From Candidatus Omnitrophota bacterium (GTDB lineage Bacteria > Omnitrophota > Gorgyraeia > 1-14-0-20-64-10): DNA of 35,948 nt. The position numbers and the translations under genes were made by a program. The DNA lies in NCBI GenBank assembly GCA_016177405.1, contig JACOVG010000010.1, positions 1 to 35,948 on the forward strand, given 5' to 3'. Shown here piece after piece: positions 23,721 through 26,515 of this stretch. Below the pieces are notes generated by a model. It searched no databases. It saw nothing but the letters and a program-made list of their open reading frames with translations, and was not told where the DNA came from. Positions within the stretch are counted from its first letter, which is position 1; each line of letters begins with the position of its first letter.

Positions 23721-24706
23721 CGAAGGCCCTGCAGGCAAACCAGATGCGCGCCGTGGTCAAGGCAATCCGGGCCAACCGGCGGTTTCTGATCTCCTCCCAC
23801 GTCAATCCCGAGGGGGACGCCCTGGGCTCCGCCCTGGCCCTGGCCTCCTTGCTCAAGCGCCTGGGCAAGGAAGCCCGGCTGGCGCAGGAGGGAGGAATCC
23901 CCGAGGCCTTCTCCTTTTTCCCGAGGCTGGCCCAGGTGATCGATCGGCCGCCCCGGCGGAACCGGGTGGACTGCGCCATGACGGTGGACGTGCCGGTCCT
24001 GGGCCGCCTGGGAAGCATGGAGCCCGTGGTCTGCCGCGCGCCGCTTTTGATCTGCATCGACCACCACGTGAGCAACCAGCGCTTCGGCCACATCAACTGG
24101 GTGGACCCGAAGGCGGCGGCGACGGGGGAGATGATTTACCGGCTTTATGAGGCTTTTCATCTTAAGCCCACGAAGGAAGAGGCCGAATGCATGTACGTTT
24201 CGATTGTGACCGACACCGGCTCTTTCCGGTACATCAACACGACCCATGGGGTTCTTGGGATCGCCGCTTCCCTGGTGGCCAGGGGGGTGAGCCCTCTCAA
24301 GGTTTCTCAAGCCCTCTACGAGGCGCACAGCCTGGCCGACATCCGCTTTCTGGGCAGGGTTCTAAGCGAGGTCCAGCACACGCCGGACAACCGGATTGTT
24401 TGGCTGGAGCTGTCGCGGCCCGTTCTGCTCGCGCTCAAACCCAGCGAGGAGGTGCTGGATGAGCTGGTGAACTTTCCCCGCTCGGTTCGGACGGCCGAGG
24501 TGGCGATGGTCCTGCGCGACGCCTTTGGCAACGGAACGATCCGGGTGAACTTGAGATCCAAGGGGAGGATCAACGTGGATCTGATTGCCCGCCATTTTGG
24601 GGGCGGCGGCCACCCCTTGGCGAGCGGCTGCACCATCCCCGGTACCCTGGCCCAGGTGCGGGCCGGACTGCTGGCCCGAATACGCCAGGCGCTCAAAAGG
24701 CTTTGA
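23717..24706 (+). CDS. nrnA: DHH/DHHA1 oligoribonuclease / pAp phosphatase (NrnA-like)
   Basis: SSHVNPEGDALGSALAL, ICIDHHVSN, VTDTGSFRYINT, HFGGGGHPLASGCTI. Confidence 0.94.
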   Translation: MTKALQANQMRAVVKAIRANRRFLISSHVNPEGDALGSALALASLLKRLGKEARLAQEGGIPEAFSFFPRLAQVIDRPPRRNRVDCAMTVDVPVLGRLGSMEPVVCRAPLLICIDHHVSNQRFGHINWVDPKAAATGEMIYRLYEAFHLKPTKEEAECMYVSIVTDTGSFRYINTTHGVLGIAASLVARGVSPLKVSQALYEAHSLADIRFLGRVLSEVQHTPDNRIVWLELSRPVLLALKPSEEVLDELVNFPRSVRTAEVAMVLRDAFGNGTIRVNLRSKGRINVDLIARHFGGGGHPLASGCTIPGTLAQVRAGLLARIRQALKRL

Positions 24707-25362
24707 TGGACGGCCTTCTGCTTATCGATAAGCCCTCGGGGATCACCTCCCACGACGTGGTGGACCGGGTCCGCCGGCGGTTTAAGGTCCGCAAGGTGGG
24801 CCACGCCGGGACGCTGGATCCGATGGCCACGGGGCTGCTCATCCTCCTGGTCGGGGCGGCCACCCGCCGGGCCCAGGAATTTCTTCAGTGCGACAAGAGC
24901 TACCTGGCCGCGGTCCGGCTGGGAAAGACCACCGACACGCAGGATGCCGAGGGAAAGATTCTCACCGAGCAAGAGGTGGGCCCTCTCACCGGGGATGAGA
25001 TAGAGGAAGCCTGCCGGCGGTTCCGGGGAGAGATCGAGCAGGAGATCCCCGCCTATTCGGCGGTGCGGATACAGGGAAGGCGTTCCTACGCCTTGGCCCG
25101 GGCCGGCCTGGAGGTTCCCCGAAGGAGCCGGCGGATCCGGATCGATGAGCTTACGATCCTCGCGGTTCGCCTGCCCGAGGTGGAGCTCAAGGTGACCTGC
25201 TCCTCCGGGACGTACATCCGGGCGCTGGCCTCCGGTCTGGGCGAGGTCTTAGGCTGCGGCGCGCACCTGGCAAGACTGCGGCGCATTCGGGTGGGCTCCT
25301 TCACGATCGATCAAGCGGTCAAGCTGGACGAGGTCGAGCCCCGTCACCTGCTCGCGGTATGA
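24706..25362 (+). CDS. truB: tRNA pseudouridine(55) synthase TruB
   Basis: LLIDKPSGITSHDVVDRVRR, KVGHAGTLDPMATGLL, YLAAVRLGKTTDTQDAEG. Confidence 0.97.
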   Translation: MDGLLLIDKPSGITSHDVVDRVRRRFKVRKVGHAGTLDPMATGLLILLVGAATRRAQEFLQCDKSYLAAVRLGKTTDTQDAEGKILTEQEVGPLTGDEIEEACRRFRGEIEQEIPAYSAVRIQGRRSYALARAGLEVPRRSRRIRIDELTILAVRLPEVELKVTCSSGTYIRALASGLGEVLGCGAHLARLRRIRVGSFTIDQAVKLDEVEPRHLLAV

Positions 25363-25517
25363 CCCCACCACTCCTCGGAGCCTGCGCCGTCCGACGGCGC
25401 ACGGGAAGAATGGAAGCTCGGACGGCGTCTGTGCCGGCAGCAGACTTTCCGAGGAGTAGATTCTGCCGGCACAGCGACAAGGCTGTGGCCTTGTCGGGTT
25501 TCCAAGGAGTGGTGGGG
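25363..25517 (+). promoter_or_regulatory. Cloverleaf-like structured RNA element in the truB-ribF gap, predicted to sequester the ribF SD
   Basis: Outer helix CCCCACCACTCCTCGGA/TCCAAGGAGTGGTGGGG (16/17 bp; 25363-25379/25501-25517); arm A CGCCGTCCGA/TCGGACGGCG (25385-25394/25418-25427); arm B CTGTGCCGGCAG/CTGCCGGCACAG (25429-25440/25463-25474); arm C CGACAAGGC-TGTG-GCCTTGTCG (25475-25496). Confidence 0.7.
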
Positions 25518-26515
25518 TGAGGGTTCTCCGCCGGCTGCCCGCGCGTCCCCCCGGGTGGAAGCGTGTTGTGGCGGCCATCGGGATCTTCGACGGCGTTCAC
25601 CGGGGCCACCGGGCGATCCTGGCCAAAGCGGTCCAGCGCTCCAGGGCCGTGCGGGGGACGGCCGCGGCCGTCACCTTCTACCCCCACCCGCTGGCGGTCT
25701 TGGCTCCCCGTTTTCTGCCGAAGCTCCTCATCTCTCTTCCCAGGCGCCTGAAGGGCTTCGCGGCGCTGGGCATCCGGGCGGCCTTTGTGATTCCCTTCCG
25801 AAGATCCTTCTGCCGCCTGTCTCCCAGGGTTTTCGTCAAGCGGTACCTCGTGAAGACCCTTCAGGTTAAAGAGGTTGTTGTGGGTCACGATTTCAGGTTT
25901 GGGGCGGGCAGATCCGGTTCGGCGCGGACCCTCCGGGAGCTGGGAGACGAGCTCGGTTTCAGGGTCCATGTGGTGGGCCCTGTGAAGGTGCGCGGCCAAC
26001 GGGCCGCCTCCCACCGGATCCGGAAACTGATTGCCAGGGGAGCGCTGAAGAAGGCCGGTTCCTTCCTGGGGCGTCCGGCGACGATCGAGGGAAGGGTGAA
26101 GGCCGGTTCCGGACGCGGAAGGAAGCTTGGATTCCCGACGGCCAACTTGAAAGTGGAAGCCGGGGTTCTGCCTCCGGTGGGGGTCTATGCCATTTGCGCC
26201 AGGGTGGGTGAAAGGGCTTATCCCGGGATGGCCAATGTCGGGTACAGGCCCACTTTTAAAAAGTCAACGGCCGGAGTTCTCCGCAGAAGGGGTCTGACCC
26301 CGATGGTGGAAAACCATCTGTTTGGCCTGAAGGGGTCTGTCTATGGGCGGCGGATGGTGACGGCCTTCTTGAAACGGCTCCGGCCGGAGAGGCGTTTTCC
26401 TTCGGCCGGCGCGCTGGCCCGCCAGCTCAAGAGGGATGCCCGCCAGGCGCGTCAGGCCATCCGGCAGCTTCGGCCGCCCGGGTTTTCTCTGGACTCCTTC
26501 GGAAGGGCGTGGTAG
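25517..26515 (+). CDS. ribF: Bifunctional riboflavin kinase / FAD synthetase
   Basis: VAAIGIFDGVHRGHRAIL, VKRYLVKTLQVKEVVVGHDFRFGAGRSG, GRKLGFPTANL, NVGYRPTF; GTG start with SD AAGGAG at 25504-25509. Confidence 0.95.
   Translation: MRVLRRLPARPPGWKRVVAAIGIFDGVHRGHRAILAKAVQRSRAVRGTAAAVTFYPHPLAVLAPRFLPKLLISLPRRLKGFAALGIRAAFVIPFRRSFCRLSPRVFVKRYLVKTLQVKEVVVGHDFRFGAGRSGSARTLRELGDELGFRVHVVGPVKVRGQRAASHRIRKLIARGALKKAGSFLGRPATIEGRVKAGSGRGRKLGFPTANLKVEAGVLPPVGVYAICARVGERAYPGMANVGYRPTFKKSTAGVLRRRGLTPMVENHLFGLKGSVYGRRMVTAFLKRLRPERRFPSAGALARQLKRDARQARQAIRQLRPPGFSLDSFGRAW
26274..26314 (+). repeat. 41-bp palindromic dispersed repeat, copy 2, in-frame within ribF
   Basis: GAGTTCTCCGCAGAAGGGGTCTGACCCCGATGGTGGAAAAC, 34/41 identical to 10354-10394 reverse complement. 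Confidence 0.75.

Follow-up and report, generated by a model that had tools for sequence, protein, structure and literature searches.

A dispersed inverted-repeat element in the ribF start codon of an Omnitrophota bacterium and its relatives that encode a GIY-YIG nuclease

The truB–ribF gap and its dispersed copies

What fills the gap between truB and ribF in this Omnitrophota genome, and does it act on ribF? The window that we analysed is a 35,948-nucleotide stretch of contig JACOVG010000010.1, and all of its features described below lie on the plus strand. The upstream gene, truB (24706..25362; Pfam TruB_N, 1.4e-53), overlaps the stop codon of the preceding gene as TGATG at its ATG 24706; the list of open reading frames places the truB start at TTG 24703, and the ATG is the likelier start given this overlap and the N-terminal sequence MDGLLLIDKP (window 24703–24708). 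The downstream gene, ribF (25517..26515), encodes FAD synthetase and riboflavin kinase domains (Pfam FAD_syn, 2.6e-43; Flavokinase, 3e-35). From the base after the truB stop (TGA 25360–25362) to the first base of the ribF start (GTG 25517–25519), the gap is filled exactly by a sequence originally predicted to be a structured RNA that buries the ribF ribosome-binding site, either as a switch sensing a ligand or protein or as a device through which a ribosome finishing truB melts the 5′ arm.

The structural part of this original prediction was borne out. The outer helix pairs 16 of 17 bp (25363–25379 with 25501–25517, one mismatch; inverted-repeat arms 25362–25379 and 25501–25518, 94%) and carries the Shine–Dalgarno sequence AAGGAG (25504..25509) in its 3′ arm. 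Inside it lie three helices without mismatch, of 10, 12 and 9 bp: hairpin A (25385..25427; 25385–25394 with 25418–25427, or alternatively 25383–25391 with 25393–25401), hairpin B (25429..25474) and hairpin C (25475..25496). The 10-nt complementarity between 25370–25379 and TCCGAGGAGT (25448–25457) in the loop of hairpin B, proposed to form a competing pseudoknot, is also exact. The predicted RNA fold reached −111.7 kcal/mol compared with −86.2 ± 4.9 for shuffled sequences (z −5.24), and 0 of 200 shuffles were as stable. An Rfam scan of the window returned two tRNAs only and no family, FMN riboswitch included, in the truB–ribF gap.

Copies of the sequence occur elsewhere. The same genome holds three in all: that between truB and ribF, a second with 71% identity between fchA (FTCD_C) and folD, and a third on contig C18 that was found with a pattern requiring two 9-bp ends and leaving the flanks free. 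SDR and SLOG-type genes follow related copies in two relatives. Across the nine family genomes searched, the end-only pattern yielded 69 curated copies in seven genomes (around 42 of them in genome G002, and 28 of the 69 forming one subfamily), and the backward pattern, used as a control, gave 0–3 matches per genome. Three single-end matches in G000 (two on C2, one on C26) had no right end within reach, and one of these runs off its contig. A class-wide sample showed TGA-flanked copies in 18 of 384 genomes, with no control match in any genome, and a scan of named genomes added five copies in Elusimicrobiota and one in a ‘Deltaproteobacteria’ bin; further Omnitrophota families hold copies too, and a plasmid collection searched by distant blastn contained none. 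Look-alikes in Bacteroidetes, Actinobacteria and other groups outside Omnitrophota were judged to be chance matches or different G+C-rich repeats. Those in Prevotellaceae/Bacteroidales (L195, L218 and L233) are G+C-rich inverted repeats, TACTGACCCCGCCCC...GGGGCGGGGTGA, that follow TACTGA and form a separate, probably unrelated family.

Several variants accompany the typical copies. A second, longer sub-type in G002, GGGGTCCTGG...CGGTTCGGGG, has ends related to those of the typical copies but differs in its interior and has no recognised enzyme (L326, 586 bp; L063, 503 bp; L328, 287 bp; L107; L106). Nested arrangements, with one inverted-repeat element inside another, were seen on G050 contig C4 (L110) and at G050:C64:54307-54452. 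The G002 copy at the start of that genome’s truB (L090, contig C48) sits at the end of an apparent other dispersed repeat, CATCCTGAGCTGAGTCGAAGGATGA.

This distribution bears directly on the switch. Sensing of a ligand or protein is contradicted by the recurrence of these ends upstream of folD, of SDR and SLOG genes and of dozens of others, and control specific to ribF by relatives whose truB–ribF gap has an element of different interior (G003) or none (G007 and G008). The pseudoknot fared no better, as the hairpin B loop sequence that would form it is missing from the nearest copy, at fchA/folD. A dedicated RNA switch sensing FMN, FAD or a protein to control ribF would explain the very stable multi-branch fold with the Shine–Dalgarno sequence in its outer helix, but against these copies, and with the pseudoknot lost and no Rfam match, we regard it as very improbable. 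The original prediction had itself named a MITE-like insertion with copies elsewhere as the contrary outcome, and this is essentially what was found. It had remarked neither on the 17-bp inverted repeat with its direct TGA repeat, nor on a 53-codon open reading frame, nor on the copies at unrelated genes.

Ends, target duplication and insertion at start codons

The mobile element core spans 155 bp (25363..25517) and is bounded by 17-bp terminal inverted repeats (left, 25363..25379; right, 25501..25517), the right one supplying both a new ribosome-binding site and the first base of the new GTG. In the direction of the gene, the consensus NTGA/CCCCRCCMC...GKGGYGGGG/TGA describes nearly all copies; the window copy reads TGA/CCCCACCACTCC...GGAGTGGTGGGG/TGA. 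Among the 69 copies, complementarity of the ends holds through position 17 and collapses at position 18, and two-sided changes occur at positions 5, 8 and 10–17 (positions 1–9 are partly fixed by the search pattern). The compensatory pairing for which the original prediction had asked is therefore present in that end pairing is kept across copies, but it takes the form of a sharply bounded DNA inverted repeat, so covariation in the outer helix cannot count as proof of RNA function.

TGA flanks the element on the left in 68 of the 69 family copies and on the right in 67. The base before the left TGA is A in 38, G in 19, T in 6 and C in 5, the make-up of start codons, as would follow from NTG being the original start; beyond NTGA, we found no upstream motif in the family copies that could serve as a target determinant. 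Together with the TG that follows, the last G of the element forms a new GTG that opens a long gene in nearly all copies (more than 80 codons or running off the locus in 80 of 84). In other families, 36 of 42 end-only matches have TGA on both sides, and TTA, TAG and TGG are duplicated in one copy each, which identifies a true 3-bp target duplication. Given this layout, removal of the element restores the start codon. Empty sites have exactly this form: G007 and G008 both retain an intact ATGA overlap at truB/ribF and an intact GTGA overlap at fchA/folD, and G003 carries its different-interior element at the same truB/ribF overlap. Applied to the window, the original ribF start codon is the ATGA at 25359..25362, uninterrupted in G007 and G008; the left target-site duplication is the truB stop (25360..25362), and the right one (25518..25520) overlaps the GTG at 25517–25519. 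Terminal inverted repeats, target-site duplication and empty sites are thus all present, as in MITE-type elements.

Exceptions to start codons are few. One copy is intergenic (L039), one lies before a mutS-like start (L100) and one at TGATG (L103), the last two near stop codons. Copies without an overlapping upstream gene often begin a few bases after a TATAAT-like box (L023, L029, L046, L068, L095 and L098), which looks like the arrangement of a leaderless start.

Do these elements seek out start codons, or merely persist there? Insertion might be aimed only at TGA, with copies surviving where they are harmless or kept where they help downstream expression. The three copies off start codons all have broken open reading frames, as would follow if the frame is kept by selection where a gene depends on the element, and among the 45 clustered copies one orientation prevails by about 42 to 3, a bias that also agrees with retention and for which we dropped the idea that both orientations occur freely. 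Against this, the window, although 96% coding, offers 29 intergenic TGA sites on both strands compared with about a dozen NTGA starts (from a hand-chosen gene list), and only 1 of the 69 copies (L039) is clearly intergenic. Intergenic copies should be common if insertions were merely tolerated; their rarity favours targeting or positive retention without separating the two. We give retention without targeting somewhat less than an even chance, and targeting itself is unproven.

A conserved reading frame and a proposed translational relay

The element carries an open reading frame of its own. Of the 69 cores, 66 are 2 mod 3 in length (binomial 5e-28 on the assumption of independent copies, which does not hold, as many belong to the one subfamily of 28). 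A frame read from the old start codon therefore closes precisely on the duplicated TGA, where the new GTG overlaps it. In the window this mini-ORF has 53 codons (25359..25520; ATG 25359–25361, TGA 25518–25520) and encodes MTPPLLGACAVRRRTG...SGFQGVVG, in full MTPPLLGACAVRRRTGRMEARTASVPAADFPRSRFCRHSDKAVALSGFQGVVG. It is uninterrupted in about 61 of the 69 copies, compared with 18.3 ± 3.5 (largest 28) for shuffled interiors of equal lengths. Reverse-strand frames are also open in 47 of the 69, so the palindromic make-up adds to openness. The rule is looser in other families, in which 24 of 42 matches are fully open.

Some copies depart from this rule. At what appear to be gene starts, the frame is interrupted in L041, L078 and L084 (177 bp), which shows that the mini-ORF is not absolutely required; at these the Shine–Dalgarno sequence may act alone. 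Copies with a length of 0 mod 3 (L049, L306 and L124) would fuse to the N terminus of the host protein. Two minimal copies at start codons consist of the inverted repeats only: the 26-bp one (L318, G002:C14:11662) keeps the frame (MTPPPREVVG, then stop), and the 21-bp one (L306, G005:C69) would extend the host protein, both as read by hand.

Could the mini-ORF encode a functional small protein? The 137-bp copies show an excess of third-position changes (139 versus 72 and 56), the frame is open and amino-acid changes are fewer than expected of a neutral frame. Interiors are, however, completely different between genomes, and two copies are nothing but the bare repeats of 26 and 21 bp; we consider such a protein improbable.

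We favour a role for the act of translation. The element probably inserted into the ribF start codon where its ATGA overlapped the truB stop, duplicating TGA and turning one 4-nt overlap into two: ATGA 25359–25362 (truB stop and mini-ORF start) and GTGA 25517–25520 (mini-ORF stop and ribF start). A ribosome ending truB would reinitiate at the overlapping AUG and translate the 53 codons, melting the hairpins that bury AAGGAG (25504–25509); it would then stop at the duplicated TGA and reinitiate at the overlapping GTG of ribF, with the Shine–Dalgarno sequence supplied by the right inverted repeat. Copies with other end types have similar purine runs (GGAG, GAGG or GGAGG) at the equivalent position. 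Such a relay would account for the conserved frame and length, and for broken frames being found mostly where no start codon was interrupted. Judged from the sequence, the mini-ORF is probably translated and ribF is probably still coupled to truB through it. The coupling reading of the original prediction is therefore probably right in effect, but it would work through translation of the mini-ORF and not through a bare RNA switch; given the 2 mod 3 rule, the relay replaces melting of the 5′ arm alone by a ribosome at the truB stop, and both could act.

GIY-YIG-encoding relatives and known systems

Longer elements with such ends were considered as putative autonomous parents. Eight, of about 315–355 bp, encode a GIY-YIG nuclease of around 95–120 residues and nothing else: L333 and L176 in family f1, L363 in f8, and L368, L370, L375, L376 and L377 in f10. 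Each has paired ends and lies at an NTGA start, and all match PF01541 (5.7e-11 to 1.4e-15); Y19, Y30, G32, R40, H44 and E76, the expected catalytic residues, are invariant in the five nucleases aligned. In the five f10 carriers the reading frame runs from the host ATG (M[IT]P[PR]P...) through the nuclease to the duplicated TGA. The nucleases of L176, L333 and L363 are read in a frame of their own from their own start, but this frame too closes at the duplicated TGA. The nuclease frame would take the role of the mini-ORF in these relatives. By eye, L324, L334 and other G002 copies resemble a shortened nuclease-bearing type. L378 (G198 contig C18) has a GIY-YIG gene and a composite left side, in which two units, first CCCCACCACTTG...CAAGTGGTGGGG and then TCCCATCACCTG...CAGGTGATGGGA, lie near one start codon. 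Inside elements with these ends, no HUH Y1 transposase (IS200/IS605, RAYT/REP) was seen.

With eight such relatives, the short copies, the window copy included, are most readily explained as non-autonomous derivatives. In the case of the window copy, this reading draws on shared ends, site and frame, as it contains no recognisable GIY-YIG domain or nuclease remnant; in its genome we found no element-borne GIY-YIG gene, only one stand-alone gene without such ends and a UvrC-sized frame. That the GIY-YIG protein drives mobility is our inference and is unproven. An unrelated transposase might instead move the same element in trans, with the GIY-YIG genes as passengers or secondary colonists. A pair of 17-bp inverted repeats flanked by a 3-bp target duplication is what DDE transposons typically have; GIY-YIG enzymes are familiar as homing nucleases and, to our knowledge, not as transposases; and the carriers are split between two or more positions of a GIY-YIG tree (80 columns, mostly unresolved). 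All of this would suit the alternative. Yet the eight carriers, from three families, each have GIY-YIG as their sole gene; and in G002 a span of 3.2 kb from the unpaired ends analysed contained no longer element with such ends, nor was any other enzyme recognised. We hold a transposase acting in trans to be unlikely, if well short of negligible. From the dispersal, ends, target duplication, empty sites, frame and nuclease-bearing relatives that sequence comparison reveals, we consider it quite probable that the truB–ribF feature is a mobile element inserted into a start codon, non-autonomous itself but derived from a type that encodes a GIY-YIG nuclease, and that the mini-ORF lets the host gene survive the insertion. 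Whether these elements form a new class of prokaryotic transposon, with a GIY-YIG nuclease as sole enzyme, that recognises start sites (NTG-A), captures the host start and rebuilds start codon and Shine–Dalgarno sequence seems to us evenly balanced.

We found no published description of the Omnitrophota element, which appears previously undescribed: full-text searches of the literature, covering GIY-YIG in combination with terminal inverted repeats, MITEs or Omnitrophota as well as start-codon palindromic elements, gave no account of such an element, though accounts may exist elsewhere. We know of no bacterial mobile element that is almost confined to start codons, is itself translated from the host start and repays a ribosome-binding site and start codon. 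Such elements would account for a class of odd small open reading frames and structured operon ‘gaps’ in uncultured bacteria, features that could be taken for small genes or riboswitches. They also raise the possibility that GIY-YIG nucleases act in a form of transposition that involves inverted repeats and a target duplication.

The closest published systems are the Rickettsia palindromic elements (PMC10969869) and the free-standing seg/mob homing endonuclease genes of phage T4 (PMC2988022). The former are dispersed palindromes of about 100–150 bp whose open frame is tolerated by host genes (PMC10969869), and the Omnitrophota element is likewise palindromic and dispersed, with an open frame that the host tolerates. 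Rickettsia elements lie inside genes as in-frame fusions, whereas the Omnitrophota element lies in the start codon with its own stop and a Shine–Dalgarno and GTG restart; in 66 of its 69 copies the length is such that the mini-ORF closes at TGA instead of fusing inside a host frame. It adds 17-bp inverted repeats, TGA duplication and nuclease-encoding relatives. The seg genes are small, free-standing GIY-YIG genes between other genes, often promoter-less and some overlapping the upstream gene (PMC2988022). In being small GIY-YIG genes inserted between genes they resemble the carriers, but the Omnitrophota element occupies many unrelated start codons. Each seg gene homes to one allelic site, and we know of no seg gene with terminal inverted repeats, target duplication or a swarm of short derivatives.

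MITEs and other non-autonomous derivatives of insertion sequences are, like the element, short, with inverted-repeat ends and target duplication, and many of their copies cannot encode a transposase; the differences are that the candidate parent here encodes a GIY-YIG nuclease instead of a transposase, that the sites are almost wholly start codons and that the frame is conserved. Finally, ATGA-type overlaps couple translation by termination–reinitiation (PMC6728339). Both the site and the proposed route of downstream-gene expression are shared with such coupling at ATGA and TGATG overlaps, but here a mobile mini-cistron placed between two genes makes a chain of two 4-nt overlaps, a natural system in which termination–reinitiation could be studied.
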